Below, piece after piece: positions 7,656-37,453 of a DNA stretch of 64,000 bases. Positions within the stretch are counted from its first letter, which is position 1, and every line of letters starts with the position of its first letter. The notes beneath the pieces are model-generated. The model did not search any database. It was not told the origin of the DNA and saw only the letters and a program-made list of their open reading frames with translations. Position numbers and translations under genes: made by a program. Source of the DNA: Pseudomonas viridiflava. Its GTDB lineage: Bacteria > Pseudomonadota > Gammaproteobacteria > Pseudomonadales > Pseudomonadaceae. Location of the stretch: assembly GCF_003702045.1 (NCBI RefSeq), contig NZ_RBTP01000069.1:1-64000 (forward strand), in the 5' to 3' direction.

Positions 7656-7668
7656 GCGCAGGTATCGA

Positions 7669-9204: not shown

Positions 9205-9233
9205 AACCGTCAGCCAAGTCCAGGAAGGACCCT

Positions 9234-21832: not shown

Positions 21833-21854
21833 AAATACCTCAGGGTTTTGGTGT

Positions 21855-21870
21855 CCTGATCGCGATCAGG
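21855..21870. promoter_or_regulatory. 16-bp perfect palindrome upstream of spuB
   Basis: CCTGATCGCGATCAGG is fully symmetric and lies 22 nt before the spuB ATG in the leader. It is a candidate dimeric regulator site, for example for a helix-turn-helix repressor of polyamine catabolism, or a strong RNA hairpin. The next bases on the minus strand are not T-rich. Confidence 0.5.
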
Positions 21871-22150: not shown

Positions 22151-22425
22151 TGAACCCCCGGTTTTATTGCTTTATGGGTTGCAATCGAGCTTAGCCGTGT
22201 TCATTTTTTTATACAACAACCCGTTAAAAATAAAAGACAGGCTGCTTTTACTGCTATTTAGAAGTGATTTCAGCCCGATTAAAACGCCCCAAAGTGCAGC
22301 AAAAAAGACTGTTTTGCGCAGTTTGAGGGCACATTAAAGCGCTATTGACTTCATCATGGCTTTCGGATTGACTGAGACCCGTAATCATTGATGATTGATA
22401 TTTTTAACAACAAAGGTGTTGCATC

Positions 22426-23886: not shown

Positions 23887-25344
23887 TTACAGCCCGCCGA
23901 CGTGAAACGCCTTCACTTCCAGGTACTCGTCCAGACCGTAGCTGGAGCCTTCACGGCCAAGACCCGACTGTTTGACGCCGCCGAACGGCGCAACTTCCAT
24001 CGAGATGATGCCGGTGTTGAGCCCGACCATGCCGAACTCCAACGCCTCGCCAAAACGCCATGAACGACGCAGGTCCTGGGTGAAGTAATACGCACCCAAA
24101 CCATAGGGCGTGGCGTTGGCCAGCGCCAGCGCCTGGGCTTCGTCGGTAAAGCGCATCAGCGGTGCGACCGGGCCGAAGGTCTCTTCGTTGGCCAGCAGCA
24201 TGCCTGCGTGGGTATCACCGAGCACGGTTGGCTGGACGAACTGGTTGTCGCCTTCAGGCATACCGCCATACAACAGCTTAGCGCCCTGACTCAGGGCATC
24301 GTCGATGTGCCGGGAAACCTTGCTGACCGCTGCCGGGTTGATCAGCGGGCCAATCGTAACGCCCTCTTCCAGGCCGTTGCCGACCTTGAGCTTGGCGACT
24401 TCTTCCACCAGCCGTGCAGCGAAGCGGTCGTAGATGCCGTCCTGCACCAGAATGCGGTTGGCGCACACGCAGGTCTGTCCAGCATTACGAAACTTGCTGA
24501 GCATGATGCCTGTAACGGCCTGCTCAAGGTCAGCGTCGTCGAACACGATGAAGGGGGCATTACCGCCCAGCTCAAGGCTCAGGCGCTTGATGTGTTCGGC
24601 GCTCTGGCGCATCAGTAAACGGCCCACAGCGGTCGAGCCGGTGAAGGAAATCTTGCGCACCACCGGGTTGCCGGTCAGTTCTTCGCCGATCCCGACTGGC
24701 ATGCCGGTGATGACGTTGAACACGCCTGCCGGAATGCCCACACGCTCGGCCAGCACTGCCAACGCCAGTGCCGAAAGGGGCGTGAGGTCCGAAGGCTTGA
24801 CGATGATCGGGCAGCCCGCTGCCAGCGCGGGTGCGCATTTGCGGGTGATCATCGCATTCGGGAAGTTCCAGGGCGTGATGGCCGCGCAGACGCCGACCGG
24901 CTGCTTGAGCGTCATCAGGCGACGGTCCACGCTCGGCGCAGGAATGGTTTCGCCGTAAGAGCGACGCGCTTCTTCCGCGAACCATTTGACGAAACTGGCG
25001 CCGTAGCGGATTTCACCCCGCGACTCGTTCAGCGGCTTGCCTTGCTCGAGGGTCATGATCAGCGCCAGGTCTTCGACGTTTTCCAGCATCGCCTGGTGCC
25101 AGCGCTCCAGCAAACCTGCCCGCTCGGCAGCGGGGCGAGCGCGCCAGGCAGGCCAGGCGCGATCGGCGGCTTCGATGGCGCGACGGGTTTCAGCGCCTTG
25201 CAGGGCCGGAACCTGAGCGATGACCTCGCCGGTTGCCGGGTCGGTAATGTCCAGTGTCGCGCCGTCGTCGGCAACGATCCACTGCCCATCCACATAAGCA
25301 CGGTCTACCAGCAGGCTGGGGTCTTTCAAATGGTTCTTGAGCAT
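23887..25344 (-). CDS. NAD(P)-dependent succinate-semialdehyde dehydrogenase-like aldehyde dehydrogenase
   Basis: A 485-residue aldehyde dehydrogenase. Signature residues are PWNFPNAM with the conserved Asn, VKPSDLTP, FTGSTAVGR, the general base E258 in LELGG and the nucleophile C292 in NAGQTCVCANR. The NTGIISMEVAPFGGVKQSGLGREGS tail region and overall sequence resemble GabD/DavD-type enzymes, which oxidise succinate or glutarate semialdehyde. It is the last gene of the large minus-strand operon and lies 120 nt after the M20 deacylase. It could equally oxidise another omega-amino-aldehyde made by the flavoenzymes in this operon. A role with the neighbouring spu genes is inference. Confidence 0.88.
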   Translation of the reverse strand: MLKNHLKDPSLLVDRAYVDGQWIVADDGATLDITDPATGEVIAQVPALQGAETRRAIEAADRAWPAWRARPAAERAGLLERWHQAMLENVEDLALIMTLEQGKPLNESRGEIRYGASFVKWFAEEARRSYGETIPAPSVDRRLMTLKQPVGVCAAITPWNFPNAMITRKCAPALAAGCPIIVKPSDLTPLSALALAVLAERVGIPAGVFNVITGMPVGIGEELTGNPVVRKISFTGSTAVGRLLMRQSAEHIKRLSLELGGNAPFIVFDDADLEQAVTGIMLSKFRNAGQTCVCANRILVQDGIYDRFAARLVEEVAKLKVGNGLEEGVTIGPLINPAAVSKVSRHIDDALSQGAKLLYGGMPEGDNQFVQPTVLGDTHAGMLLANEETFGPVAPLMRFTDEAQALALANATPYGLGAYYFTQDLRRSWRFGEALEFGMVGLNTGIISMEVAPFGGVKQSGLGREGSSYGLDEYLEVKAFHVGGL

Positions 25345-25464
25345 GGTCGGTCGAGTCCTGTTCCGGGATGACTGCCAGTCTAAGCAGCCATCACAGTCCA
25401 GGATGCTGAAAGCAAAGTGTACGAGCTGCGTACGCTGCTGAATTTCGCGCCCGCACGGCAGCCT

Positions 25465-26622
25465 CTACTGCTTCAGCGAGCCCAGCAAACTTTGCAGAAA
25501 GCGCTCGCCAGCATTCATCTGGCTTTCTTCGATGAACTCGTCAGGCTTGTGCGCCTGCTCGATGGACCCAGGCCCGCACACCACCACCGGCACGTTGAGA
25601 CGCCCGGCGAACAGACCGCCTTCGGTGCCATACGACACCTTGATGTGCTGCGTGCCGGGCTCGGCAAACGCGTGCAGCATGCGCACCGCTTCGACGCTGG
25701 GATGCGTTTCAAGCGCGGGGTATTCGTTCATGATTTCGATGTCGATGGCTGCCACGCCGGACAGCTGTCGGGCTTCACGCACCAGCACTTCGGCGCGCTC
25801 GCGCAATTGCGCCAGCAACAGGTCCGGATCATCGCCCGGCAGGTTGCGGTATTCGAACTCCAGCGTGCAAAGGTTCGGCACGATGTTCAGCGCCTTGCCG
25901 CCATCGATACGACCGATGTGTACGGTGCTGTAAGGGATGTCGTAGCCTTCGTCACGCACGCCCTGCTGCTCGACCTGCTTCTGACTCTTGCGCAGTTCGG
26001 CAATGAAGTCGCTGGCCAGATGAATCGCGTTGACCGCACGCGGCGCCAGTGAGGAATGCGCTTCCTGACCCCGGCAATAGGTGCGGTACGAACTCTTGCC
26101 TTTGTGACCGACCGCGAACTGCATCAGCGTCGGCTCTCCCACCACGCACAGAAACGGACGCACCGGTGCCAGGTGCAACACGTCCAACAAACGCCGCACG
26201 CCCACGCAGCCGATTTCTTCGTCGTGGGACAAGGCCAGTTGCAGCGGTCGCGTCAGGGTCATGTCTGCGGCGTCGAGCATGGCGTCGATGGCCAGCGCGA
26301 TGAAGCCTTTCATGTCGCAGGTGCCGCGCCCGTAGATACGCCCGTCACGCACCGTCGCCTGAAACGGCGGCACGGTCCACGCCTGTCCTGCAGCAGGCAC
26401 CACGTCGGTATGCCCGGAGAGCAGAACACCGGGTTGCCCTTGCGGACCGGTACTGGCGAACAGGTTGGCCTTTTTGCCCGTCTCGTCCTTGACGATCAGC
26501 GACTCGATGCCCTTGGTCGCCAGCAAGTCGCGAACGTAGTCGATCAGCGCCATGTTCGGCTCCGACGATACGGTTTCGAAAGCAATCAGGCGTTTGAAGA
26601 TGTCCAGCGCACGCGGTGTCAT
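25465..26622 (-). CDS. M20 metallopeptidase, acetylornithine deacetylase (ArgE)-like
   Basis: A 385-residue zinc hydrolase of the ArgE/DapE type. Metal-site motifs are LSGHTDVVPAAGQ (metal His and catalytic Asp), GRGTCDMKGFIAL (bridging Asp) and SHDEEIGCVGVR (catalytic Glu); later come VVGEPT, the dimerisation-domain segment EAHSSLAPRAVNAI, and YGTEGGLFAG. N-deacylation of an amino acid or amine is expected. A second ArgE-like protein next to argA (56268-57416) is the more likely arginine enzyme, so this one probably serves the catabolic operon. Its start overlaps the stop of the upstream oxidase by 4 nt (ATGA). Confidence 0.88.
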   Translation of the reverse strand: MTPRALDIFKRLIAFETVSSEPNMALIDYVRDLLATKGIESLIVKDETGKKANLFASTGPQGQPGVLLSGHTDVVPAAGQAWTVPPFQATVRDGRIYGRGTCDMKGFIALAIDAMLDAADMTLTRPLQLALSHDEEIGCVGVRRLLDVLHLAPVRPFLCVVGEPTLMQFAVGHKGKSSYRTYCRGQEAHSSLAPRAVNAIHLASDFIAELRKSQKQVEQQGVRDEGYDIPYSTVHIGRIDGGKALNIVPNLCTLEFEYRNLPGDDPDLLLAQLRERAEVLVREARQLSGVAAIDIEIMNEYPALETHPSVEAVRMLHAFAEPGTQHIKVSYGTEGGLFAGRLNVPVVVCGPGSIEQAHKPDEFIEESQMNAGERFLQSLLGSLKQ

Positions 26623-27773
26623 GAGGCTTTACTCGCAAGTTCTGAGAAGGCGGCAAAACGGCGGATATCGAACGGACTGATCAGCGTTTGGGTACTGCCA
26701 GTGCTGATCAGCTCGGCCATGACATCGCCCACACCAGGGCCGAGCTGGAAGCCGTGACCGCAGAAGCCGAACGCGTAATACAGGCCGTCGACCTTGCCGC
26801 TGGGGCCCATGATCGGCAATGAGTCCGGCGTGTAGCTTTCGATGCCGCTCCACACGCGAATGATGTTCAGGTTGCCGACGCCCGGCAGCAGACGGCGCAT
26901 CTGCTGCATGTGATTGATGAGGCTGTTGGGGTCGAAATACGCACGACGGTTGACCATGTCCGGCTTGGTACGCACGCCACCGCCAATGACGATGTTGCCG
27001 CGTGCGATCTGGCGGAAATACACCACTTCGTGCGGGATTTTGGTAAACACGCCGATCACCGTCGGCAGTGCATAAGGCACCGGCTCAGTGACAGACATCT
27101 GCGGGCCGAAGGTATCCAGTGGCACCGGCTCGCCGAACTGCGCCGAAAGCTTTTCGCCCCAGGCGCCGGCGGTGACCAATAATTGATCAGCGGTGAAGAT
27201 TCGGCCATCGGTGGTCGTGACCTGAAATTCCCCACCGACCTTTTCGACGTGCAGGACTTCGGTGCGCTCTTCGATTCGAGCGCCAGCGCGAATCGCAGCG
27301 CGGGCCCAGGCAGGCGCGGCCAGACGCGGGTTGGCATGGCCGTCGTGGGGCGCATAGGAACCGCCCTTCACGTCCGGCCCGAGAAACGGAAAGCGCTCGT
27401 GCAGCTCTTTGCCCCGGAAGACCTTCAGGTCCAGTTCACGCGCTTGGGGCGCAGCCGCGTAGGCGTCGAACTCTTCGATTTCGTCTTCGCGGTAGCACAC
27501 ACGCATGTGGCCGCTGGGCAGAAACTCCAGGTCTTCGCCGATCAGTTGCGGTAGACGCTTCCACAGCGCAAAGGAGCGGTTGGCCAGATCCAGTTGGTCC
27601 AGGTGACGCCCTTGCCGGCGCACGTTGCCGAAGTTCACGCCACTGGCGTACTGGCCGACCACGTCGCGCTCCAAAAGTGTTACCGACTTGCCGCGCTGAC
27701 GCAGGAAAAACGAAGACGCTGCGCCCATCACACCGCCACCGACAATCAGGACATCGACCTTGGGCTGCTTCAT
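26619..27773 (-). CDS. DadA/HcnC-like FAD-dependent oxidoreductase (beta subunit of a heteromeric amine/opine dehydrogenase)
   Basis: A 384-residue FAD oxidase of the DAO/GlpO fold. The Rossmann FAD loop is VLIVGGGVMGAASSFFLRQRG at residues about 8-28, followed by GVNFGNVRRQ and the C-terminal FAD-contact PDSLPIMGPSGKVDGLYYAFGFCGHGF. It resembles HcnC, OoxB/NoxB and the catalytic subunits of D-hydroxyproline dehydrogenases. The start at 27773 (MKQPKVDVLI) overlaps the preceding gene by ATGA; an in-frame extension to 28013 would lie entirely inside that gene and is rejected. The order small iron-sulfur, large FAD, DAO-type is exactly that of hcnABC. The substrate is unknown. Confidence 0.85.
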   Translation of the reverse strand: MKQPKVDVLIVGGGVMGAASSFFLRQRGKSVTLLERDVVGQYASGVNFGNVRRQGRHLDQLDLANRSFALWKRLPQLIGEDLEFLPSGHMRVCYREDEIEEFDAYAAAPQARELDLKVFRGKELHERFPFLGPDVKGGSYAPHDGHANPRLAAPAWARAAIRAGARIEERTEVLHVEKVGGEFQVTTTDGRIFTADQLLVTAGAWGEKLSAQFGEPVPLDTFGPQMSVTEPVPYALPTVIGVFTKIPHEVVYFRQIARGNIVIGGGVRTKPDMVNRRAYFDPNSLINHMQQMRRLLPGVGNLNIIRVWSGIESYTPDSLPIMGPSGKVDGLYYAFGFCGHGFQLGPGVGDVMAELISTGSTQTLISPFDIRRFAAFSELASKAS

Positions 27774-29179
27774 GACACCACCTCGTCTGTCATCATCGAC
27801 AACGGTTTGACCGGGGCCTGCCCACGCTGGCGGCCGACCTGTTCGACCGGTACGCCGGATTCGGCAGCGATCACTTCGGCTCCGGCCTGGGAACAGTAGC
27901 GCCCCTGGCAGCGCCCCATGCCAACCCGGCTGAAGGCCTTGGCGCGGTTGACTTCGCAGGCGCCCTTCTCGCGCACGACACCTCGCAGTTCGCCTGCACT
28001 GATCATTTCGCAACGGCAGACGATGGCGTCATCGGGCAGCGCCTTGGCCTGCGCGGACGGCCACGGAAACGCCTCCATCAGGCCGACGCGGAAGCGATCC
28101 ATGACCTCCAGATTCTGCCGCAGGTTATCCACACGCTGGTTATCCACAGGCTTGCCGAGGTCGGCCAGCAACGTCAGCGCGGCCAAGCGCCCCGCCTGCT
28201 CGGCCGCATCGGCACCGCGAATTTTCGCGCCATCGCCAGCGGCATAGACGCCCGCGACCGACGTGCGTCCATCGTCATCGACGGCCAGCACCCATTGCCC
28301 GGAGGCGTCGTCAAACCTCAGGCCGCAACCGGCCAGATCAGCCAGTTGGGTTTCCGGCCGCAGGTGGTAACCCAGCGCCAGCGCATCGCAATCGACCGTC
28401 AGCGCGTTGCCGTTGGCGAGTCGCACCCGCACGCCGCTGACGCCGTTTTTCTCATCACCGAGAATTTCTTCAGGCTTGATCCCCAGATGCACCGGGACTT
28501 TGGCGCTGTACAACTGAGCCAGCAGCTTCATGCCATTGAACAGCAGGCCCGGACGTGACAACAGCTTGGGCATCGCGCCAATGCGCTTGCTGAAGGGCGA
28601 GGTGTCGAGCACCGCTGCCACATCGGCACCGGCTTTGACGTACTGACTGGCGACCAGATACAGCAATGGGCCGCTGCCCATGAACACCACGCGGCTGCCA
28701 ATCGACACGGACTGCGACTTGAGCGCAATCTGCGAGCCGCCCAGGCTGTAAGTGCCTGCCAGTTGCCAGCCCTTTATCGGCATCAAACGGTCGGTCGCGC
28801 CCGCGCACAGGATCAGCGCGTCGTATTCCACGACGGTGTGCAGGCCCTTGCTGACGCAGCACAACTGACCCGGTGTAAGGTTCCAGGCCAGGGTATCGGG
28901 GCGGTAATCGATCTGGCTGCGCAGGCGGTCGAAGCTTTCGTGCAGGTCGCGGGCTTTGGCCGCTTCGGTGCCGTACAGCGCCGAGTAATCGCGCTTGAAG
29001 CCTTCCGGCTGGCGACGGTAGATCTGTCCGCCGTCGCGACGGTTCTCGTCAATCAGGATCGGTTTGATCCCCGCCGCCAAAAGGGTTTCGGCGCAGCGAG
29101 TGCCTGCGGGGCCAGCGCCGACGATGACCACGCGAGGGCTGCCGGTGTGGCTGACGTTCAGCCGTGGAGAAGTGGCCAT
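27770..29179 (-). CDS. HcnB/OoxA-like FAD/NAD(P) oxidoreductase with C-terminal [2Fe-2S] domain
   Basis: A 469-residue pyridine-nucleotide-disulfide-type flavoprotein. The FAD loop is VVIVGAGPAGTRCAETLL (residues about 17-34), the second dinucleotide loop VVFMGSGPLLYLVA (about 164-177), and VYAAGDGAKIRGADAAEQAGRLA contacts FAD. The C-terminal BFD-like domain has four cysteines, C388 and C390 (CRC) and C424 and C429 (CQGRYC), fitting a [2Fe-2S] cluster. This is the alpha-subunit layout of opine oxidases, HcnB and hydroxyproline dehydrogenases. GGAGG precedes the ATG, and the gene overlaps the small ferredoxin-like gene by 22 nt. It contains two TTATCCACA 9-mers. Confidence 0.87.
   Translation of the reverse strand: MATSPRLNVSHTGSPRVVIVGAGPAGTRCAETLLAAGIKPILIDENRRDGGQIYRRQPEGFKRDYSALYGTEAAKARDLHESFDRLRSQIDYRPDTLAWNLTPGQLCCVSKGLHTVVEYDALILCAGATDRLMPIKGWQLAGTYSLGGSQIALKSQSVSIGSRVVFMGSGPLLYLVASQYVKAGADVAAVLDTSPFSKRIGAMPKLLSRPGLLFNGMKLLAQLYSAKVPVHLGIKPEEILGDEKNGVSGVRVRLANGNALTVDCDALALGYHLRPETQLADLAGCGLRFDDASGQWVLAVDDDGRTSVAGVYAAGDGAKIRGADAAEQAGRLAALTLLADLGKPVDNQRVDNLRQNLEVMDRFRVGLMEAFPWPSAQAKALPDDAIVCRCEMISAGELRGVVREKGACEVNRAKAFSRVGMGRCQGRYCSQAGAEVIAAESGVPVEQVGRQRGQAPVKPLSMMTDEVVS
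28125..28148 (+). other. Two directly repeated DnaA-box consensus 9-mers inside a gene
   Basis: TTATCCACA occurs at 28125-28133 and again at 28140-28148, 6 nt apart, inside the HcnB-like gene. On the coding strand they encode a repeated Val-Asp-Asn, so they may be chance. Confidence 0.3.
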
Positions 29180-29469
29180 TTCGCCTCCGGTTGGGTGGTG
29201 ACGATATCGAGTCCTTCACGGACTTCGTTGGAGCAGGCGCGCAGCCGCTCGCCGCTGCGGGTCCAGACCCAGCAGTCCTGGCAGGCCCCCATCAGACAAA
29301 AACCCGCTCGACGCCCCGAATCGAATTCGGACTGGCGCAAGGCCGTGCCGCCGGTCAGCAGCGCGACCATCAGGGTGTCGCCCTGCAAGGCTTCGACAGG
29401 CGCACCGTCGACGATCAGGCTGACGACGGGACGATCACGCTCCCCCAGTCTTACGAAACGGCCGCTCAT
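29158..29469 (-). CDS. HcnA-like small (2Fe-2S)-binding subunit
   Basis: A 103-residue ferredoxin-like protein. Cysteines C58, C63, C66 and C79 in GFCLMGACQDC and RACS give the C-x4-C-x2-C-x12-C spacing of a plant-type [2Fe-2S] cluster. The N-terminal strand pair (VVSLIVDGAPVEALQGDTL) matches the beta-grasp fold. The length is essentially that of HcnA and of the small subunits of opine and hydroxyproline dehydrogenases. It overlaps the ATPase gene upstream by ATGA and the HcnB-like gene downstream by 22 nt, so the subunits are probably made in fixed ratio. It passes electrons from the flavin subunits; the acceptor is unknown. Confidence 0.87.
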   Translation of the reverse strand: MSGRFVRLGERDRPVVSLIVDGAPVEALQGDTLMVALLTGGTALRQSEFDSGRRAGFCLMGACQDCWVWTRSGERLRACSNEVREGLDIVTTQPEAKWPLLHG

Positions 29470-31307
29470 GCGTAGGCTCCTGCGTGTTCCGGGTTAAGCG
29501 TGTTCCGACCGTCCTGCAGCTCGCCGCTGTCACGGTGGCAGAGAATTTCGCTGCCGCCCTCAATGTAGCGACGACTGGGTGCGGTCTTGTTGCACAGCCC
29601 CTCGATACGGACCGGGCAGCGGTTGAGAAAGGTGCACAGTTCGGGGGTGTTTGACGGCGCGCTGATCGGCGGCAGCTTGCCGTGGGTCACGCCACAGCTT
29701 TCCAGCCAGCCCTGTCGCAGCTCCGGCACCGAGCTGACCAGCAGGTCGGTGTAAGGATGGAACGGCGCCTGATTGAACGACTCCCGGCTGCCTTCCTCCA
29801 CCTTGTGGCCGCTGTACATCACCACGATGTCATCGCACAGCGCGCGTACCGTGGAGATGTCGTGGCTGATGAACAGGTAGGAAACACCCAGCTTGCGGCG
29901 CAGATCGCCAAGCAGTTCGAGAATGCAGGCACCGACCACGGTATCCAGCGCCGAGGTGACTTCGTCGCACAGGATCAGGTCCGGCTTGGCTGCCAGGGCG
30001 CGGGCCAGATTGACGCGTTGCTTCTGGCCACCCGACAGTTCGTTGGGACGACGGTCGGCCAGTTCGCGCGGCAGACGCACCAAGTCCATCAATTCGTGAA
30101 TGCGATCACGCAGTGCCTTGCCCTTGAGGTTGAAATACATCTTCAGCGGACGGGCCAGAATCGCGCTGACGTTGTGCATCGGGTTGAGTGCGGTGTCGGC
30201 ATTCTGGAACACCATCTGGATGCGCCGGAACTGGTCTTCGGTACGCCCGGCCAGATCGCCGGACAACGGCGCGCCATCAAACGTCAGGCTGCCCTGTGCA
30301 GGGTCAAGCAGACCGGCGACCACACGGGCCAGCGTGGATTTCCCCGACCCGGACTCGCCAATCACGCCGATGGCCTGGCCACGGCGGATCGTCAGGTCGA
30401 TGTTTTCCAGCACCCGGATCATCGGCATGCCTTGCAGATCTTTTTTGCCATAGCCTGCGGTCAGGCCCTTGATGGTCAGCAGCGTGCTGTCCTTGACCAT
30501 GTCGCTGGCTGGCGACAGTTTTGCGTCGGGTCGGGCGGCGGCGAGCAGGCTGCGGGTGTATTCGTCTTCCGGCCCCTTGAGCAACGCCTCCGTGCTGCCC
30601 TGCTCGATGACCTTGCCGCCGTTGAGCACGACGATCTGGTCGGCCATCTGCGCCACGACCGCCAGATCGTGGGAAACATAGACCGCCGTCGCACCACGGT
30701 CCCGCACCACGTGCTTGAACGCACGCAACACGTCGATCTGGGTGGTCACGTCCAGCGCAGTGGTTGGCTCATCGAGGATCACCAGCAACGGGTCACTGAT
30801 CAGTGCCATCGCCGCCATGACCCGCTGCAACTGCCCGCCCGACACCTGGTGCGGATACCGCTGACCGATGGTTTCGGGATTGGGCAACGCCAGGTCGCGG
30901 AACAGGTCGACGGCTTTTCGCTGCAGTTCCGAGCGACTGCCCAGGCCATGAATCAGCGCGCCTTCGATCACTTGGTCGATCAGCTTTTTCGCCGGATTGA
31001 ACGCCGCCGCCGCGCTTTGCGCAATGTACGAAACCCGATTGCCGCGCAGGCCTTGCAGCTGGCTCTCCGGCAGACTGAGCATGTCGTGCTCGCCGACCTG
31101 CACCACGCCACCGGCAAGCTTGCAGCCACGCCGGGCATAACCCAGCAACGCCAGAGCGATCGTGGTCTTTCCGGAACCGGACTCGCCAATCAGCGCCAGC
31201 ACTTCGCCTTTCTCCAGTGCGAAGCTGACGCCTTTGACGATTTCCAGCTCACCCTTGTCGGTGTCAGCCACGACGCGCAGGTCTTGCACCCGAATCAATT
31301 GACTCAT
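29466..31307 (-). CDS. Dipeptide/opine-type ABC transporter, fused dual ATP-binding protein
   Basis: A 613-residue protein with two complete ABC ATPase domains (DppD-DppF type fused). Domain 1 has Walker A GESGSGKTT, signature VSGGQLQRVMAAM and Walker B LLVILDEPTTALD. Domain 2 has GESGSGKST, LSGGQKQRVNLARAL and DLILCDEVTSALD. The C-terminus carries the oligopeptide-transporter extension with cysteines (CTFLNRCPVRIEGLCNK) that in DppD/OppD-type proteins can bind an iron-sulfur cluster. It powers the importer formed by the next two upstream genes. It starts 1 nt after the permease stop with GGGAGGG as ribosome-binding site. Confidence 0.93.
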   Translation of the reverse strand: MSQLIRVQDLRVVADTDKGELEIVKGVSFALEKGEVLALIGESGSGKTTIALALLGYARRGCKLAGGVVQVGEHDMLSLPESQLQGLRGNRVSYIAQSAAAAFNPAKKLIDQVIEGALIHGLGSRSELQRKAVDLFRDLALPNPETIGQRYPHQVSGGQLQRVMAAMALISDPLLVILDEPTTALDVTTQIDVLRAFKHVVRDRGATAVYVSHDLAVVAQMADQIVVLNGGKVIEQGSTEALLKGPEDEYTRSLLAAARPDAKLSPASDMVKDSTLLTIKGLTAGYGKKDLQGMPMIRVLENIDLTIRRGQAIGVIGESGSGKSTLARVVAGLLDPAQGSLTFDGAPLSGDLAGRTEDQFRRIQMVFQNADTALNPMHNVSAILARPLKMYFNLKGKALRDRIHELMDLVRLPRELADRRPNELSGGQKQRVNLARALAAKPDLILCDEVTSALDTVVGACILELLGDLRRKLGVSYLFISHDISTVRALCDDIVVMYSGHKVEEGSRESFNQAPFHPYTDLLVSSVPELRQGWLESCGVTHGKLPPISAPSNTPELCTFLNRCPVRIEGLCNKTAPSRRYIEGGSEILCHRDSGELQDGRNTLNPEHAGAYA

Positions 31308-31308
31308 A

Positions 31309-32172
31309 TCAGTGCCCTCCCGAGCGTCGGCTGCGCCGTGATGACAGGCGGTCGATGAACAGATTCACGCCAATGGTCAGCGAGCCGATCGCCAGCGCAG
31401 GAATCACGATGGCTGGCGCGCCCTGATTGAGGCCGCCGATGTTTTCACGCACCAGCGAGCCGAGGTCGGCATCGGGCGGTTGCACGCCCAGCCCCAGAAA
31501 GCTCATGCCGCTGAGCAGCAGTACGATGAAGCCGAAGCGCAGGCCAAGATCGGTCAATACCGGGTTGAGCATGTTCGGCAGGATTTCGCGGCAAGCGATG
31601 TACAGGCGGCCTTCGCCACGGGTGCGCGCCACCTGCACGTACTCCAGCGCCTCGATGTTCACCGCCATGCTGCGAGCGATACGGAACGCGCCCGGCGTGT
31701 AGCTCAGCACCGCCGTACACACCAGCAGCACTTCGGAGGAGCCGAACGCCGACACCATGATCAGCGCGAGCATCTTGCTGGGAATCGAAATGAATGCGTC
31801 CATCAGGCGGCTGATGATTTCATCCAGCCACTTGGGCGCGACCACCGAGAGCAGTGCGCACATCGTGCCGATGCCGCTGGCCAGTACGGCGGAGATCAAC
31901 GCCAGACCGACCGTGAAGCGCGCGCCGATCAGCACACGGCTGAGCATGTCGCGGCCCAGGTAGTCCGTACCGAACGGAAAGGCCGCACTCATGTTCTCGA
32001 ACACGTTATCGGACACCACCTCACCCACCGGATGCGGTGCGAGCCACGGACCGAACAGCGCGATCATCAGCCAGAAAAAGCAGACCGCCGCGCCCACCAG
32101 GCCCAGCCAGGCGATCTTGCGAGGTGCGCGCACCGGAGTCGCGGGCGTAGACGTCTCAATGATTGGGTTCAT
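31309..32172 (-). CDS. Dipeptide/opine-type ABC transporter permease (DppC-like)
   Basis: A 287-residue permease. An N-terminal helix (IAWLGLVGAAVCFFWLMIALFG) is followed by the OppC-type periplasmic segment FPFGTDYLGRDMLSRVLIGAR and then the transport core with loop EYVQVARTRGEGRLYIACREILPN, the EAA-like ATPase contact. Six membrane spans are predicted. The start at 32172 (MNPIIETST) overlaps the DppB-like stop by ATGA; an upstream in-frame start inside that gene is rejected. With its partner it defines a peptide/nickel/opine importer (PepT family), but the ligand is not predictable from the permease. Confidence 0.92.
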   Translation of the reverse strand: MNPIIETSTPATPVRAPRKIAWLGLVGAAVCFFWLMIALFGPWLAPHPVGEVVSDNVFENMSAAFPFGTDYLGRDMLSRVLIGARFTVGLALISAVLASGIGTMCALLSVVAPKWLDEIISRLMDAFISIPSKMLALIMVSAFGSSEVLLVCTAVLSYTPGAFRIARSMAVNIEALEYVQVARTRGEGRLYIACREILPNMLNPVLTDLGLRFGFIVLLLSGMSFLGLGVQPPDADLGSLVRENIGGLNQGAPAIVIPALAIGSLTIGVNLFIDRLSSRRSRRSGGH

Positions 32173-33125
32173 TGGTTTCTCAGCCTCGGGTTGGAAAGAA
32201 TGGCACACAGGTCGGCCAGCAGCACCAACCCAAGGTAAGCAGCACAGAACAGCATGGTGCACGCCTGAACCAGCGCCATGTCGCGATTGGTCACGGCATC
32301 GACCATCAGGCTGGCAATGCCTGGGTAGTTGAAGATGGTTTCAACGATCACCACCCCGCCCAGCAGGTACGACAGGCTCAAGGCAACCGCGTTGACAATA
32401 GGACCGATGGCGTTGGGCAGGGCGTGTTGCAACACGATACGCACGGGGCTCACACCCTTGAGTCGGGCCATCTCGACGTAGGGGCTGTCGAGTTGATCGA
32501 TGACAGCGGCACGGGTCATGCGTGCCATCTGGGCGACGATCACGCAGCACAGGGTCATGACCGGCAACGCATAGGTGCGCATGAATTGCAGCGGCGTACT
32601 GGCGTCACCACCATAGGACAGCGCTGACAGCCAGCCCAGTTTGACGGCGAAGATCAGCACCGCCAGCGTAGCGACCAGAAATTCGGGCACCGCCACCAGT
32701 GACAGGGTGACGAAGTTCAGCGCACTGTCGATACGCCCGCCCCGGCCCATTGCCGCCCCGATGCCCAGCATCAAGGCGACTGGAACCGACACCAGCGCGG
32801 TGGTCGCCGCCAGCATCAGGGTGTTGGGAAAGCGCCCGGCAATCAGATCGGAAACCGGCATCGCGTTGGATACCGACTCGCCGAAGTTGCCGCCCAGCAG
32901 GTTCATCAACCACGTGAGATAACGCACCACACCCGGTTGATCCAGGCCCAGCTTCGTACGCAAGGCCGCAACCTGTTCAGGTGTCGCGAACTGTCCAAGT
33001 GCCTGCTGCGCCGCATCTCCCGGCAGTACCGCCGTAATGGCGAAGACCACCATTGAAACGATCAGCAGGGTCACGATCGCAGCACCGAAGCGCTGCAGGA
33101 TCAACCCGAGTGTGTTGCTGTTCAT
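32169..33125 (-). CDS. Dipeptide/opine-type ABC transporter permease (DppB-like)
   Basis: A 318-residue permease with N-terminal ILQRFGAAIVTLLIVSMVVFAIT, the DppB-type periplasmic region (VLPGDAAQQALG), PNTLMLAATTALVSVPVALMLG and the ATPase-contact loop YVEMARLKGVSPVRIVLQHALPN. Six membrane helices are predicted. The start at 33125 (MNSNTLGLI) follows GGGAGGG; the longer in-frame reading to 33356 would overlap the binding-protein gene and is rejected. It is translationally coupled to the next permease (ATGA overlap). Confidence 0.92.
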   Translation of the reverse strand: MNSNTLGLILQRFGAAIVTLLIVSMVVFAITAVLPGDAAQQALGQFATPEQVAALRTKLGLDQPGVVRYLTWLMNLLGGNFGESVSNAMPVSDLIAGRFPNTLMLAATTALVSVPVALMLGIGAAMGRGGRIDSALNFVTLSLVAVPEFLVATLAVLIFAVKLGWLSALSYGGDASTPLQFMRTYALPVMTLCCVIVAQMARMTRAAVIDQLDSPYVEMARLKGVSPVRIVLQHALPNAIGPIVNAVALSLSYLLGGVVIVETIFNYPGIASLMVDAVTNRDMALVQACTMLFCAAYLGLVLLADLCAILSNPRLRNQ

Positions 33126-33156
33126 CTGTACCCTCCCGCTCGGATTACAGCCGTTT

Positions 33157-34794
33157 TCACGCGTCCAGCCAGACTTGCTCGCTGAACATGTAGCCCATGA
33201 AACCGCCCAGCGGATTGCTGGAGTAGCCTTGAACACGCTTGTCCACACCGTCGATGTTGCTGATGAACACCGGGATGCCGATGCCGCAGTTCTGGCTGAC
33301 CAGGGTCTGCATGTCGCCATACATCTTGGCGCGCTTGTCATCGTCGGTTTCGCCACGTGCCAGCATCAGCAACTGGTCGAACTGATCGTTTTTCCAGCCT
33401 GATTCATTCCACGGCGCAGAGGACTGGAAGAACTGCGAAAAAATCACGTCGGCGTTAGGGCGCGGGTTGATGTTGCCGAAGCTCAGCGGGTGCTTCATCC
33501 AGTGATTTGACCAGTAGCCATCGCTCGGCAGGCGGTTGACGTTGAGCGTCAGCCCGGCCTGTTTGGCCGATTGCTGCAACAGTACGGCAATATCGACCGA
33601 ACCTGTGGCCGCAGGCGACGCTGCAACGGCCATCGTGATCTTTTCCATACCGGCTTTCTTGAGCAGAAATTTTGCCTTCTCGGGATCGTAAGGACGCTGC
33701 GGCAGGTCGGCATTGAAGTAACGCGAACCCGGCGCGATCGGGTGGTCATTGCCGACGCGGGCGTAGCCACGGAACACCGCCGACTTGACCTGCTCACGGT
33801 CCAGCAGGTACTTCATGGCCTCGGTGAAGTCCGGGCTTTTGCCGGGCATCTGGTCCTGACGAATGATCAGATCGGTGTAGTTGCCCGATGGCGCATCGAC
33901 CACGCGGTGCTTGTCACTGGCCGCGATACGGCTGGTGGAGCGCGGATTGACCTCGTTGATCATGTGTACGTCGCCCGACAACAACGCGTTGACCCGCGAA
34001 GGCTCGTCGGCAATGGCGATGAATTCGATCTCGTCCAGGTACGGCAGGCCCGGTTTCCAGTAGTTGGGGTTACGCACACCGACCGAACGCACGCCAGGGT
34101 TGAACTCCTTGACCTTGAACGGACCGGTGCCGTTGCCCTTGCTGAAATCGGTGGTGCCCTCGGGCACGATCAGCAGGTGCGAGACGGCGAGGATCGATGG
34201 CAGCTCGGCGTTCGGCGAGCTGAGGGTGATCTGCACTTCCAATGGGCCGGTGGCCTTGATCTCGGAAAACTGCGCCATCAGCGGCATCACTTTCGAGCCG
34301 GTGGCCGGGTCTTTATGGCGCGACAGGGAGAACACGACGTCGCCTGCGGTCAGCGACTTGCCGTCGTGGAACGTCACGTCCTTGCGCAGGGTAATCGTCC
34401 AGACAGTGGCGTCCTTGTTCTCGATCTTCTCGGCCAGCTCCATGTGCGGGACCAGGTGGCTGTCGAAGCGAGTCAGGCCGTTGTAGAACATGTAGTGACG
34501 CACGTAGTCGGTGGACAGTGCGCCTTTCGCAGGGTCGAGTGTGTCGGCTGTAGAGCTGGACATGCCCGCCACACGAATGCGACCGCCGGGCTTGCCTTTC
34601 ACAGGCGCCGCGTCGTCATCGGCGAACACTTTGCCGGCAGCGCCGAACAGGCTGGTGGAGCCTGCCGCAACCACACCGGCGACGCCCAGCATACGAAGTG
34701 CATCACGACGCGAAAGGCCGCGGTTGAGACCCTCGAAAACACGCAGGCTGTCTTCGCCTGTGATCAGCGGGGAATCGTTTTTCTTATCAGCCAT
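33157..34794 (-). CDS. Periplasmic substrate-binding protein of the dipeptide/opine-type transporter (Tat-type signal)
   Basis: A 545-residue SBP family 5 (extracellular solute-binding) protein. The N-terminus has a twin-arginine motif LSRRDALRML at residues 27-36, then a hydrophobic stretch and an AxA-like site near FADDDA, so Tat export of a folded protein is likely. Family features include TADTLDPAKG, DVTFHDGKSLTAGDVVFSL, GNGTGPFKVKEF and the C-terminal domain with YDPEKAKFLLKKAG. Such proteins bind peptides, nickel chelates, opines or glutathione-like compounds; the ligand here is unknown. It precedes the permeases by 31 nt and probably determines the operon's substrate. Confidence 0.9.
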   Translation of the reverse strand: MADKKNDSPLITGEDSLRVFEGLNRGLSRRDALRMLGVAGVVAAGSTSLFGAAGKVFADDDAAPVKGKPGGRIRVAGMSSSTADTLDPAKGALSTDYVRHYMFYNGLTRFDSHLVPHMELAEKIENKDATVWTITLRKDVTFHDGKSLTAGDVVFSLSRHKDPATGSKVMPLMAQFSEIKATGPLEVQITLSSPNAELPSILAVSHLLIVPEGTTDFSKGNGTGPFKVKEFNPGVRSVGVRNPNYWKPGLPYLDEIEFIAIADEPSRVNALLSGDVHMINEVNPRSTSRIAASDKHRVVDAPSGNYTDLIIRQDQMPGKSPDFTEAMKYLLDREQVKSAVFRGYARVGNDHPIAPGSRYFNADLPQRPYDPEKAKFLLKKAGMEKITMAVAASPAATGSVDIAVLLQQSAKQAGLTLNVNRLPSDGYWSNHWMKHPLSFGNINPRPNADVIFSQFFQSSAPWNESGWKNDQFDQLLMLARGETDDDKRAKMYGDMQTLVSQNCGIGIPVFISNIDGVDKRVQGYSSNPLGGFMGYMFSEQVWLDA

Positions 34795-34888
34795 ATCAGT
34801 TCTACCTGTCGAAAAAGGGAAATTCCGAGTTGCTCACGGTTGACCGGAGCGTCCTTCAAACACACACGACGACGGTGAAACACAGCAC

Positions 34889-36184
34889 TCAGTGACGACT
34901 GTCCTGATAGCGGTAGTAAGCGCCCACCAGCGGCAGGAACCAAGGTTTGCCGAAGTGCCCGGGAATGGCCGGCCAGTTCAGGTCCTTCCAGGGATTGGCC
35001 TGCGCCTTGCCTTCCATGACGTCTGCCATGACCTGCCCCATGTGCACCGACATCTGCACGCCGTGACCGCTGTAGCCCATCGAGTAGAAGACGCCGTCGT
35101 GCTCGCCTGCACGCGGCAAACGATCGGACGTCATGTCCACCAGACCGCCCCAGCAGTAATCGACCTTTACCTGCGCCAGTTGCGGAAACATCTGGATCAT
35201 GGCCGCCTGCAGCACCTTGCCGCTTTTGGCGTCGGAGCTGCTGTTGGACATGGCGAAACGTGCGCGCCCGCCGAACAGCAAACGGTTATCGGGGGTGAGG
35301 CGGAAATAGTTGCCGATCAACCGACTGGTCACGTACGCACGCTGGTTGGGAAACAACTGGTCGATCAGGCTTTGTGGCAGCACTTCGGTGACGATCACAA
35401 AACTGCCGACAGGCACGATACGGCGGCGATACCAGCCCAGCCCACCGTGCTGACAAGCACCTGTTGCGAGAAACACCTGCCTGGCCTGAATGGAACCTTT
35501 CGAGGTGTTGACCACAAAGCCGTTGCGGTTGGCTTTCCAGTCCTTGACCGTCGTGTCCTGGTAAACGCGCGCGCCGTGACGCACAGCCGCATCGGCCAGC
35601 CCCAGGCCGAAGCGGCCCACATGAATCTGTACGCCATTACGCTGCAGAAGTCCGCCGTGGAACTCGTCCGAGCCGATTTCGGAACGGACGTCCTGCGCCG
35701 ACAGCAGCTCGACATCGGCATCAACCTCACGACGGATCAGCTCGCAGGTGCGCGCCAGTCCTTCGTAATGACCCGGTTTGGCGGCCAGCTTCAACTTGCC
35801 GTTGCGCTTGATGTCGCAGGCAATGCTTTCCTGCTCGATCACGCTGACAACGCTTTGCACCGCACTTTCATACGCTTTGTAAAACTCGCGGGCCTGAGCG
35901 GGACCCAATGTGGCGCTCAACGACGCGTAATCCTGCGCCACTCCGGTATTGCACTGTCCACCGTTGCGGCCGGACGCTTCGCCGATTACTCGGCCGGCAT
36001 CCACCACCACCACGCTGGCACCTTTCAAGGCCAATGCACGCGCTGCCGACAGTCCGGTGAAACCGCCACCGACCACCACCACGTCAGCCTGCCCCTCCAC
36101 CGCGCCTGCCTGCGCGCCGGTGAAATCTGGAGCCGTATCGAGCCAGTAGGACTCACTGCGCATCTTGTTCCCCTTGTCACTCAT
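34889..36184 (-). CDS. PuuB-like FAD-dependent amine oxidase (gamma-glutamylputrescine-oxidase-like)
   Basis: A 431-residue DAO-fold flavoprotein. The FAD loop is VVVVGGGFTGLSAARALALKG at residues about 35-55. The family-typical SGRNGGQCNTG follows, and C-terminal GLVDMTSDRLPRAGEHDGVFYSMGYSGHGVQ contacts FAD. This SGRNGG pattern is characteristic of PuuB/PauB oxidases, which release an aldehyde and hydrogen peroxide from gamma-glutamyl-amines. It is 42 nt after the HAD gene and 94 nt before the binding-protein gene on the same strand. It could act on the imported compound or serve the spu glutamylation pathway; both are inference. Confidence 0.85.
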   Translation of the reverse strand: MSDKGNKMRSESYWLDTAPDFTGAQAGAVEGQADVVVVGGGFTGLSAARALALKGASVVVVDAGRVIGEASGRNGGQCNTGVAQDYASLSATLGPAQAREFYKAYESAVQSVVSVIEQESIACDIKRNGKLKLAAKPGHYEGLARTCELIRREVDADVELLSAQDVRSEIGSDEFHGGLLQRNGVQIHVGRFGLGLADAAVRHGARVYQDTTVKDWKANRNGFVVNTSKGSIQARQVFLATGACQHGGLGWYRRRIVPVGSFVIVTEVLPQSLIDQLFPNQRAYVTSRLIGNYFRLTPDNRLLFGGRARFAMSNSSSDAKSGKVLQAAMIQMFPQLAQVKVDYCWGGLVDMTSDRLPRAGEHDGVFYSMGYSGHGVQMSVHMGQVMADVMEGKAQANPWKDLNWPAIPGHFGKPWFLPLVGAYYRYQDSRH

Positions 36185-36226
36185 GGAAGAGCACCTTGAA
36201 AAATGCCGTGTTGCCTGTGGCTCTAC

Positions 36227-36895
36227 TTACAGACCGACCAGACCGGCAAGACCGCCAATGTCTGGAATCTGGTGATACTCGAAAGAACTGTGCGCTGGCT
36301 GTTCGTGACCACGGGCAACAAAGGCTTTGTTCTTGATCTTCATGTCGTGGGCCGAGAACAGGTCGTAGCGGAAGCTGGAAGATACGTGCAGCACGTCTTC
36401 AGGACCGCAACCGAGGTTATCGAGCATAAACTCGAACGCAGCCAGGCGCGGCTTGTAGACTTTAGCCTGATCCGCCGTGAACACTTTGTAGAACGGTGCG
36501 CCGAGCTTTTCGACGTTGGACATGATCTGGCTGTCGCTGGCGTTGGAGAAGATCACCAACGGAATCTTGTCTGCGATTTTCGAAAGGCCGGCTGGCACGT
36601 CTGCGTGCGGACCCCAGGTCGGAACGGCGTCGTAGTACAGCTGGCCTTCGCCACGGTATTCGACATTCCAGCGCTTGCAGACCCGCGACAGGGAGACTTT
36701 CAGAATCTCGTCGTAAGGCATCCAGTCACCCATGACTTGATCAAGACGATACGCCGAGAAATCCTTCACGAATTGATCCATCTGCTCAGCCGGAACACGG
36801 TCGGCGAAAAGCTCGCGCGTCATGGTGCCCATGTGAAAGTTGGTCAACGTGCCGTAGCAGTCGAACGTAATGAATTTTGGTCGAAGAAAGCTCAT
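36227..36895 (-). CDS. Haloacid dehalogenase type II-like HAD hydrolase
   Basis: A 222-residue HAD-superfamily protein. Motif I is FDCYGTLTNFH with nucleophile D12, motif II IFSNASD, motif III lysine in KVYKPRLAAFEFML, and motif IV-like HVSSSFRYDLFSAHDM. The two-helix cap insertion is the arrangement of L-2-haloacid dehalogenases (DhlB). Many proteins with this fold act as phosphatases or on other alpha-substituted acids, so dehalogenation is not proven. The start at 36895 (MSFLRPKFI) is chosen from family N-termini; the frame continues upstream without a plausible domain. It is the first gene of the operon, so transcription probably starts in the long gap upstream. Confidence 0.82.
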   Translation of the reverse strand: MSFLRPKFITFDCYGTLTNFHMGTMTRELFADRVPAEQMDQFVKDFSAYRLDQVMGDWMPYDEILKVSLSRVCKRWNVEYRGEGQLYYDAVPTWGPHADVPAGLSKIADKIPLVIFSNASDSQIMSNVEKLGAPFYKVFTADQAKVYKPRLAAFEFMLDNLGCGPEDVLHVSSSFRYDLFSAHDMKIKNKAFVARGHEQPAHSSFEYHQIPDIGGLAGLVGL

Positions 36896-37453
36896 TGTGT
36901 GCGGTCCTGAAAGTTCGTTGGGGTCATGGCATGACGCGCAGTTTCGGCACCCTTGCAAGGGCCTTGATGCACGTTGCAGCACACCCTCATTACAACACCG
37001 TGAAATCAGCAGATGGCGTTAAAAGTGATGGCTGCTTGATAGAAAGCACCGTTTTGAGGTGCGCGCTCAGCAGACTTTGCGGGGCGCTCCAGCCTTGGGC
37101 AAACCCCGGTTTTCGGTGCCTTTTTGACCCTTTTCAGGGCGCTCAGGCTCAAACACGCGGCTTTGCACCGCAGATACTGCGCCTTTGCATCCCTTGTGGC
37201 TCAGCACAATGTACTGCGCCCGGAACCGGCTCATAAGCGCAGCTATATAAGGCAGACCCTGGACCTGAAAAGCTCAAGCATTTGCTGCCGGTCCCTTGGC
37301 CGATTTAAGCAGTAACTGTGGTCTGTCGAGTGGCCAATCGCGAAATCTGCCGAATGTTCGCAGCCCTCTTGTCACCCCGTCGCGCAGGTGGGATACAGCA
37401 AGCCTGCCGCATCCTTTTCTGTCCCTGTGCATCCTTCTGGAGGGAGACACATC
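36896..37453. other. 558-nt divergent intergenic region, no gene recognised
   Basis: It lies between the operon head (HAD gene, minus) and the GNAT gene (plus). Several short direct motifs occur, such as TTGCA at 36953, 36977 and 37152. A TATATAAGG box (37244-37252) could be a -10 for the plus strand. I searched for sigma54 -24/-12 elements and saw only weak matches. No regulator gene is next to the operon, so any control protein would be encoded elsewhere. A small RNA or regulatory sites could be here. Confidence 0.4.

Follow-up and report, generated by a model that had tools for sequence, protein, structure and literature searches.

In plant-associated Pseudomonas, here Pseudomonas viridiflava, eleven clustered genes appear to form an operon for the import and degradation of plant N-substituted azetidine-2-carboxylates, most likely nicotianamine and mugineic acid relatives, a reading whose chances we put at about even. 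An azetidine-2-carboxylate (AZC)-type substrate is fairly well supported by comparative genomics and probably correct; nicotianamine-type specificity is less supported than the azetidine reading and could go either way. Nicotianamine, itself an N-substituted AZC, is described in xylem, phloem and apoplast in PMC10341464.

Organization of the gene block

The window is the whole analysed stretch of 64,000 nt. It carries eleven ORFs at 23887-36895, all on the minus strand, which run from HAD to aldehyde dehydrogenase (ALDH) in the 5' to 3' direction, followed below by two neighboring genes on the plus strand.

36227..36895, minus: HAD1, HAD type II hydrolase, 222 aa, proposed azetidine-ring-opening hydrolase (TIGR01428, PDB relatives)
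34889..36184, minus: PuuB-like FAD amine oxidase, 431 aa (PF01266, 229 bits)
33157..34794, minus: family 5 extracellular solute-binding protein (SBP), 545 aa (PF00496, 259 bits)
32169..33125, minus: ABC permease A, 318 aa (PF00528, PF19300)
31309..32172, minus: ABC permease B, 287 aa (PF00528)
29466..31307, minus: fused double ATPase, peptide/nickel/opine type, 613 aa (two PF00005 stretches, PF08352)
29158..29469, minus: 2Fe-2S subunit, 103 aa (PF13510, 80 bits)
27770..29179, minus: large FAD subunit with BFD-like 2Fe-2S domain, 469 aa (PF07992, PF04324, PF17806)
26619..27773, minus: DAO-type catalytic subunit, 384 aa (PF01266, 250 bits; nearest PDB sequence 1y56_B)
25465..26622, minus: M20 deacylase, acetylornithine deacetylase group, 385 aa (PRK07522, 514 bits)
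23887..25344, minus: succinate-semialdehyde-dehydrogenase-type ALDH, 485 aa, proposed D-malic/aspartic semialdehyde dehydrogenase (TIGR01780)
37388..38311, plus: GNAT N-acetyltransferase, divergent from HAD1, probable associate (PF18014, other GNAT models)
38623..39336, plus: EutQ-like cupin, possible associate (PF05899)

The block has four ATGA overlaps (-4 nt), and its widest gap is 120 nt. In 5' to 3' order, the gaps are 42 nt (HAD-PuuB), 94 (PuuB-SBP), 31 (SBP-permease A), -4 (permease A-permease B), 1 (permease B-ATPase), -4 (ATPase-2Fe-2S), -22 (2Fe-2S-FAD), -4 (FAD-DAO), -4 (DAO-M20) and 120 (M20-ALDH). The first-pass annotation had described eleven genes on one strand in this order, with gaps of at most 120 nt, repeated ATGA overlaps and subunits of 103, 469 and 384 aa; the ORFs bear this out, and its broad family names agree with Pfam and NCBIfam. 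Scans returned 0 promoter-like sites (2.5 expected) and 12 terminator-like sites (12.3 expected, no excess over chance); at this chance level, they say nothing on transcript continuity.

Conservation of the block and its neighbors

The block is also present in Pseudomonas, Vibrio, Pokkaliibacter, Burkholderiales, Acetobacter and alphaproteobacteria. Using the DAO subunit as query, we confirmed 100 loci and kept the best 80, in which a gene was counted if it lay within about 10 kb of DAO at set identity thresholds. The counts span up to 19 genus-level labels; contig ends clip some loci, and L022 and L023 are possibly one locus counted twice. In these best 80 of 100 loci, DAO is accompanied by the 2Fe-2S subunit in 79, the FAD subunit in 77, the binding protein in 70, the permeases in 64 each, the ATPase in 61, HAD in 68 and the PuuB-like oxidase, which usually adjoins HAD1, in 65. 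M20 (41/80) and ALDH (40/80) are found in about half. The eleven-gene block is thus no chance run of genes. Conserved co-location in relatives, on which the earlier single-pathway model had been made to depend, holds in this comparison. Also supported is a single unit that imports an N-substituted amino compound and degrades it, cleaving a C-N bond oxidatively and converting an aldehyde to an acid.

A glutamine synthetase gene (22426-23802) adjoins the block, but as it is matched in just 5 of 80 loci, it lies outside the conserved unit. This count, together with the finding that no PuuB model appears in the best 25 of 44 NCBIfam matches of the PuuB-like protein, led us to reject a polyamine (Puu/Spu) route.

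Of 398 Pseudomonas genomes sampled, 91 have HAD1. With a minimum of 60% identity, it is also found on 211 plasmid records; among all 412 records matching it, Rhizobium and Sinorhizobium are the commonest names. Some hosts, such as Vibrio salinus and a beach-sand Massilia, are not evidently plant-bound, a point against a plant substrate.

Within about 10 kb, the same best 80 of 100 loci contain a tartrate/D-malate dehydrogenase (21/80), a GhrA-like protein (34/80), two aminotransferases (13/80 and 18/80) and Lrp (32/80). GNAT occurs in 18 of 80 loci, with 11 genus-level labels outside Pseudomonas (at least 30% identity, 60% coverage), and beside HAD1 it is clipped by the locus edge in 16 more, 15 of them Pseudomonas; the EutQ-like cupin occurs in 15 of 80 at 28% identity or more. 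A nearly full set sits in one cluster in Acidovorax from duckweed, S. meliloti pSymA, P. sprentiae and locus L113. The tartrate dehydrogenase family (TIGR02089) has D-malate activity, and the neighbors (omega-aminotransferase, semialdehyde dehydrogenase, tartrate/D-malate dehydrogenase, GhrA-type and GNAT) are consistent with conversion of AZC to D-malate and pyruvate. TonB siderophore receptors of differing subtypes lie near 4 of 93 loci, a count made with those four receptors as queries, so that divergent ones were possibly missed; as proof of a metal-chelate substrate they were set aside as a mere hint.

The S. meliloti pSymA locus presumably lies near SMa1860, the SMa numbers being assigned by position. 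Papers on these genes mention expression, and one of them likens SMa1862 to a proline-betaine uptake system; a tested substrate for the genes near SMa1860 was not found in these papers.

HAD1 resembles azetidine-2-carboxylate hydrolases

HAD1 scores 156 bits, above the cutoff of 125.4, against the haloacid dehalogenase type II model TIGR01428, which spans a set of related hydrolases and no single proven reaction. By sequence, its best PDB relatives are 8hp5 (E 1e-18) and the AZC hydrolase 3smv (E 8e-17), with scores of 62-71 bits to 8hp5-8hp7 and AZC hydrolase 3smv/8yvw, compared to 39 bits for the best cis-epoxysuccinate hydrolase and 36 bits for the best other haloacid dehalogenase. The depositors named 8hp5-8hp7 (S)-2-haloacid dehalogenase, and 8hp7 was trapped with (2R)-4-amino-2-hydroxybutanoic acid. 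The best fold match of the HAD1 model is 8hp7 (Z 26.3), and a Zobellia L-haloacid dehalogenase matches equally well (Z 25.8); modelled fold comparison by itself cannot tell the two activities apart for HAD1.

Residues D12, T16, S117-N118, K148, H170 and D178 are invariant in 16 HAD1 proteins, and the catalytic positions (Asp nucleophile, Thr, Ser-Asn, Lys and late Asp) align to those of AZC hydrolases. The AZC hydrolases (3smv, 8ywo; Pseudomonas A2C AC-hydrolase) and Aspergillus nidulans AzhA share with HAD1 the HAD type II fold, the Asp nucleophile and the motif residues. HAD1, only about 26-32% identical to AZC hydrolases, differs in forming a subfamily of its own (about 30% identity) that is linked to an importer and amine oxidases; the enzyme already described works on free AZC and, in Pseudomonas A2C, in the periplasm. 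The first-pass annotation had listed the HAD as a dehalogenase-like member and allowed a halogenated substrate. Sequence and catalytic positions recast it as AZC-hydrolase-like, which suggests a pointer to the substrate and no side enzyme; nothing indicates a halogenated compound.

Two further HAD proteins accompany HAD1. HAD3 matches the AZC hydrolase 3smv (E 4e-44; best haloacid dehalogenase outside the group, 5.5e-8); its L036 copy scores 154 bits to AZC hydrolase against 36 to haloacid dehalogenase, clearly nearer the former, and the S. meliloti copy shares 39% identity with 3smv in the aligned piece. In a Proteobacteria sample, HAD3 was found in 13 of 28 HAD1-positive and 10 of 370 HAD1-negative genomes (Fisher 4e-11, a P value that ignores shared ancestry). 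Identity of these matches to the query is 32-72%, and those at the low end may belong to other HADs. HAD3 lies within 10 kb of HAD1 in 11 of the 13 genomes having both, and as the two coexist, free AZC need not be the HAD1 substrate. In the window's genome, HAD3 gave no match, with a query that missed HAD1 too and so excludes a near copy only.

HAD2 belongs to a module with a 2-hydroxyacid dehydrogenase, a GABA-type aminotransferase and Lrp, and its five PDB matches are the same entries as the AZC-hydrolase-group relatives of HAD1. It occurs in 86 of 398 Pseudomonas genomes, all among the 91 HAD1-positive ones; here too the Fisher value ignores shared ancestry. Its catalytic motifs are not intact (Thr, Ser, Lys and late Asp are lost, and in the Vibrio copy also the nucleophile). 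In Pseudomonas, HAD2 occurs strictly together with HAD1, as an apparently dead AZC-hydrolase-like partner.

Flavoenzymes, importer and accessory enzymes

The PuuB-like oxidase scores 194.1 bits against a cutoff of 600 for its best NCBIfam model, AmaA, which gives no L-pipecolate oxidase call. The 2Fe-2S, FAD/BFD and DAO subunits sit in one operon with an opine-oxidase-type architecture, by which we take the set to be akin to opine oxidase, D-hydroxyproline dehydrogenase and HcnABC. All have a small 2Fe-2S subunit, a large FAD subunit with a BFD-like domain and a DAO subunit, encoded by overlapping genes in the same order, but the partner genes differ. The likeness to HcnABC claimed earlier is confined to architecture, with nothing HcnABC-specific, and cyanide synthesis was rejected.

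The importer shares a family 5 binding protein, two permeases and same-superfamily ATPases with the staphylopine/pseudopaline (Cnt) and Nik-type systems. It differs in its fused ATPases, in a binding protein far under the CntA model (NF047575; 62.6 against a cutoff of 800) and in catabolic enzymes encoded in the same operon. The binding protein is similar to numerous binders of dipeptides, nickel and opines. Its AlphaFold2 model matches many family 5 proteins with like scores, NikA and CntA entries being among the 50 matches listed but not top, and hence the model points to no ligand.

M20 passes PRK07522 (514.4 against 412) and TIGR01892 (366.7 against 297.7). It has no evident job on nicotianamine, a molecule without an amide. 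ALDH passes TIGR01780 (680.6 against 646.35), which makes succinate semialdehyde a predicted substrate only.

Proposed pathway and alternative readings

Two C-N-cleaving flavoenzymes together with an importer imply an N-substituted AZC; among plant compounds, nicotianamine or a mugineic acid fits best. Alongside the gene content, conservation, co-occurrence and homology, which are observed, we infer the substrate, the step order, the stereochemistry and the roles of M20 and GNAT. The compound would be taken up by the binding-protein ABC transporter, and its N-C links cleaved by the PuuB-like oxidase and the 2Fe-2S/FAD/DAO dehydrogenase to give aspartate- or malate-type semialdehydes. Attack by HAD1 at C2 of the azetidine, a rare and strained four-membered ring, would proceed through an Asp ester and invert the configuration, so that the opened ring becomes an (R)-4-amino-2-hydroxybutyrate unit. 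Together with an omega-aminotransferase, encoded here on a separate contig (C24), the SSADH-type ALDH could then yield D-malate, which tartrate/D-malate dehydrogenase would convert to pyruvate. GNAT and M20 may be an acetylation/deacetylation pair masking toxic AZC or a reactive intermediate. According to PMC8016842, the AZC-hydrolase product is used via transamination or a GABA-like route.

GABA- and ectoine-type semialdehyde routes employ GabT/GabD and DoeC. They likewise pair an omega-aminotransferase with an SSADH-type dehydrogenase, whereas the end product proposed here is D-malate, feeding TIGR02089-type dehydrogenase. All enzyme families of the block are already known.

A simpler plant AZC, free or mono-N-substituted (such as the legume compound medicanine) and neither nicotianamine nor a mugineic acid, is unlikely but deserves weight: AZC-hydrolase relatives, aminotransferase, SSADH and tartrate/D-malate dehydrogenase suit any AZC source, and 7 of the 13 loci L103-L115, S. 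meliloti pSymA included, keep HAD1 and the PuuB-like oxidase with no 2Fe-2S/FAD genes in the stretch read. However, the extra C-N-cleaving dehydrogenase and peptide-size importer of Pseudomonas, Burkholderiales and other clusters would be superfluous for free AZC, and four of those seven loci (L103, L111, L112 and L115) have a distant DAO-fold oxidase close by, 24-27% identical. The first-pass annotation, which gave no definite substrate, favored an opine, N-acyl or polyamine-type compound without azetidine ring, with a different role for HAD1. The opine-oxidase-like architecture, the family 5 binding protein and an M20 deacylase suited to N-acyl substrates agree with this, but it leaves without reason the coupling of HAD1 to AZC-hydrolase-clade HADs and to tartrate/D-malate dehydrogenase, and we consider it rather improbable; the opine idea survives at most as mechanism, not as substrate class.

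Catabolism of a bacterial opine metallophore of pseudopaline/staphylopine type is very improbable. The ATPase (384.6) comes close to the CntF and CntD cutoffs (385 and 380) and the few siderophore receptors would suit it, but the binding protein falls far below CntA, and such opines have no azetidine ring, which would leave the HADs unexplained. Least credible is a dehalogenation or cis-epoxysuccinate pathway with tartrate dehydrogenase acting on tartrate. The dehalogenase family model, the tied fold comparison and the tartrate dehydrogenase family neighbors are compatible with it; two amine oxidoreductases, aminotransferases and a peptide-type importer would make no sense there. Haloacid or halogenated-amine degradation was set aside because the HAD sequence is nearer AZC hydrolases and the neighbors handle amines.

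Implications

The azetidine reading, if taken to its end, would make the block the gene set with which bacteria degrade nicotianamine from plants and the phytosiderophores of grasses, with carbon flowing to D-malate; we hold this tentatively, at a little below even chances. Root bacteria are reported to degrade nicotianamine-type chelators, with only candidate genes named so far. PMC7786132 describes depletion of mugineic and deoxymugineic acid by P. fluorescens SBW25 and cites P. putida strains as non-degraders of phytosiderophores; the putative SBW25 candidates it names are a transporter, a porin and an oxidoreductase gene, other than this operon. It was the only paper on nicotianamine/phytosiderophore degradation found in a search covering few subscription journals or preprints, and apart from these candidates, the literature so searched gave no gene set for an azetidine/nicotianamine pathway. 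According to PMC7946895, soil microorganisms readily degrade mugineic acids, limiting their use as iron fertilizers, and DMA with proline in place of azetidine has a longer-lasting effect in soil; the biodegradation assay described there compares the proline analogue with citrate and EDTA, not DMA.

If true, a defined operon would make it possible to ask which microbes acquire metal chelators from plants, whether chelator uptake feeds epiphytes, symbionts and pathogens, and how to make stable chelator fertilizers. It would also represent a new use of HAD chemistry, the opening of an N-alkyl azetidine ring.

Organization of the operon

ORF analysis of the window recovered the eleven genes at the positions where the first-pass annotation had placed them. 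The junctions are tight, with gaps of 42, 94, 31, -4, 1, -4, -22, -4, -4 and 120 nt in the 5' to 3' direction. The features are as follows:

23887-36895, minus strand: the operon, comprising, from 5' to 3',
HAD1: HAD type II domain
PuuB-like gene product: DAO-fold oxidase
importer genes: family 5 binding protein, two permeases and a fused ATPase
dehydrogenase small subunit (2Fe-2S): Fer2_4 domain
dehydrogenase large subunit (FAD): Pyr_redox_2 and BFD domains
dehydrogenase catalytic subunit: DAO domain
last two genes: M20 deacylase, then aldehyde dehydrogenase (ALDH) of the succinate-semialdehyde dehydrogenase (SSADH) type
20474-23802, opposite strands: two glutamine-synthetase-like genes adjoining the operon; the operon-proximal one was matched in 5 of the best 80 of 100 loci

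The genome assembly comprises 5.67 Mb in 79 contigs.

HAD1 and its relatives

Sequence search revealed that HAD1 has its best PDB relatives in 8hp5-8hp7, which were deposited under the name (S)-2-haloacid dehalogenase, and in the azetidine-2-carboxylate (AZC) hydrolase 3smv. The AlphaFold2 model of HAD1 (pLDDT 91) aligns with 8hp7, which holds trapped (2R)-4-amino-2-hydroxybutanoic acid, with a Z of 26.3 and an rmsd of 2.2 over 219 residues; a Zobellia L-haloacid dehalogenase ties with it (Z 25.8), and the AZC hydrolases 8ywo and 3smv score 24.7 and 24.4, respectively. HAD1 keeps the Thr, Ser, Lys and late Asp, and has a Trp and a His in common with the AZC hydrolases. The former four residues are lost in HAD2 (L095 8523-9188, on contig C24 of the same genome), whose PDB matches at E 0.001 or better are only the 8hp5-8hp7 and 3smv/8yvw entries; HAD2 is apparently a conserved, AZC-hydrolase-like pseudoenzyme. 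Judged by its sequence, a third protein, HAD3, is clearly an AZC-hydrolase homologue; it had no match in the window's genome, in a search that missed HAD1 as well.

Among the 398 genomes of the genus sample (E <=1e-50 for HAD1, E <=1e-20 for HAD2), HAD1 was found in 91 and HAD2 in 86, all of them within the 91. HAD1 occurs without HAD2 in G022, G026, G050, G149 and G181, and the two lie hundreds of kb apart on a single contig in G018, G312 and G383. The phylum sample, also of 398 genomes (E <=1e-45 for HAD1, E <=1e-25 for HAD3), gave HAD1 in 28, HAD3 in 23 (32-72% identity) and both in 13, at a distance of 3.4-9.8 kb in 11 of the 13 and on different contigs in G507 and G601. Co-occurrence P values are inflated by relatedness among the genomes; the close physical linkage of HAD1 and HAD3 in several families is a point separate from them. 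From their joint presence in 13 of the 28 HAD1 genomes, we infer a division of labour: the substrate of HAD1 would probably be a substituted azetidine or some other intermediate, and that of HAD3 free AZC. In genomes that gave no HAD3 match, the window's included, HAD1 may do both jobs.

Conservation of the operon

A search with the DAO subunit yielded 100 confirmed loci, the best 80 of which were used for all counts out of 80. The nearest named loci, with 96-97% identity in this subunit, belong to P. alliivorans, P. triticifolii, P. asturiensis and P. viridiflava. Among the 80, an identical block and gene order is present in Pseudomonas, Pokkaliibacter and Vibrio salinus, a block without M20 in several Paraburkholderia and Pandoraea, and rearranged gene sets in Acetobacter and alphaproteobacteria. 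At the set thresholds, the 2Fe-2S subunit was found in 79/80, the FAD subunit in 77/80, the binding protein in 70/80, HAD1 in 68/80 and the PuuB-like oxidase in 65/80. In the stretches read, seven of the 13 loci L103-L115 are without the 2Fe-2S and FAD genes, but a distant DAO-fold oxidase is encoded close to the cluster in L103, L111, L112 and L115, which belong to these seven.

M20 at 50% identity was found in 41/80 loci (Pseudomonas, the gammaproteobacterium L18, Pokkaliibacter and Vibrio), and a distant M20 (37-41%) lies nearby in L057, L103, L112 and L113. Other loci carry M20D (9/80), M19 (8/80) or M14 (3/93; L065, L109 and L110), so that a peptidase-type hydrolase is common and its family variable.

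On a single contig, Pseudomonas frederiksbergensis 36C6 has two operon copies (L022 and L023), separated by about 1.2 Mb and equal in their identities to the window; the duplication may be a joined-assembly artefact.

Genes travelling with the operon

Flanking-ORF clustering and family scans of the best 80 loci revealed nearby genes for a GhrA-type 2-hydroxyacid dehydrogenase (34/80), an Lrp regulator (32/80), omega-aminotransferases (13/80 and 18/80), further ALDHs (16/80 and 10/80) and a two-domain N-acetyltransferase (GNAT; 18/80, cut off at the locus edge in 16 more). An enzyme of the tartrate dehydrogenase family, a family with D-malate activity, is found in 21/80; its Acetobacter copy scores 523.7 bits against TIGR02089 (cutoff 470.4), and the closest tartrate/D-malate dehydrogenase of the window's genome is on contig C28 (78%). 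A module on contig C24 comprises a 2-hydroxyacid dehydrogenase, a GABA-type aminotransferase, HAD2 and Lrp; its equivalent lies directly downstream of the operon in other Pseudomonas, Vibrio and Pokkaliibacter.

The same genome holds a second 2Fe-2S/FAD/DAO set on C28 (L097 6159-8910; 52, 53 and 43% identity) and a second, partial operon copy on contig C1 (L098, 3000-22000; copy at 6930-15385). The latter includes a GntR-like regulator, a kinase and a class III aminotransferase (PRK06148 is the best model for the last two), together with a HAD1 paralogue (83%), a GNAT, a PuuB-like gene (56%) and a binding protein (78%); permeases and 2Fe-2S/FAD/DAO were not found in this stretch. It might act on a hydroxylated relative of the operon substrate.

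Gene content of named clusters
Acidovorax sp. DW039 (duckweed): 2Fe-2S/FAD/DAO, Lrp, aminotransferase, GhrA, GNAT, ALDH, then HAD1, PuuB-like, importer, tartrate dehydrogenase, SSADH, and finally methyltransferase and FepA-type receptor
Sphingobium RAC03: TonB siderophore receptor and GhrA ahead of the block; GNAT, SSADH, tartrate dehydrogenase, aminotransferase past it
Massilia litorea: TonB siderophore receptor and ALDH adjoin the block; in this stretch, binding protein not listed and lower pathway not found
Paraburkholderia sprentiae: two GNATs, GhrA, tartrate dehydrogenase, SSADH, aminotransferase, M14
Caballeronia NK8: HAD3 and M14 also in cluster
Burkholderia pyrrocinia: core genes and chemoreceptor; lower pathway not found in this stretch
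S. meliloti 1021 pSymA (located by tblastn): importer, HAD3, aminotransferase, GNAT, HAD1, PuuB-like, SSADH, tartrate dehydrogenase, ALDH, GhrA, M20; 2Fe-2S/FAD not found in the stretch read
R. ruizarguesonis: partly like the pSymA cluster, with a threonate cluster in between

In P. sprentiae (L109), an amino-acid-type ABC transporter (9973-12341) separates the PuuB-like and 2Fe-2S genes, and the peptide-type importer lies further on. TonB-dependent siderophore receptors of different subtypes sit beside the cluster in 4/93 loci (L034 12340-14457, L105 25851-28094, L106 2414-4585 and L108 1820-3952); their link to the cluster is weak.

Proposed pathway and substrate

A Pseudomonas AZC hydrolase is described as yielding 2-hydroxy-4-aminobutyrate, which is transaminated next, and A. 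nidulans as using AZC via GABA enzymes and also an Mpr1-orthologous acetyltransferase (PMC8016842). Continuing this route, as the enzyme families suggest, an aminotransferase and an SSADH-type ALDH would give D-malic semialdehyde and D-malate, from which a tartrate/D-malate dehydrogenase would produce pyruvate. We consider it likely that the operon acts on an azetidine compound, although the identity of HAD1 to AZC hydrolases is low and its fold comparison is not decisive. The ring probably bears substituents, because two C-N-cleaving flavoenzymes are encoded together with a peptide-type importer.

One such compound is nicotianamine, an N-substituted AZC reported from xylem, phloem and apoplast (PMC10341464), from which mugineic acids are made (PMC7786132). 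Soil is reported to degrade deoxymugineic acid readily, and an analogue with proline in place of azetidine to have a longer-lasting effect; the biodegradation of this analogue was compared with citrate and EDTA only (PMC7946895). Mugineic acids are depleted by P. fluorescens SBW25 and not by the P. putida strains cited in the same paper, whose authors propose three upregulated candidate functions in SBW25 (PMC7786132). The substrate could instead be another substituted AZC, and the azetidine and nicotianamine proposals leave the role of M20 unexplained. That the operon serves the use of nicotianamine or a mugineic acid has, in our estimate, about an even chance.
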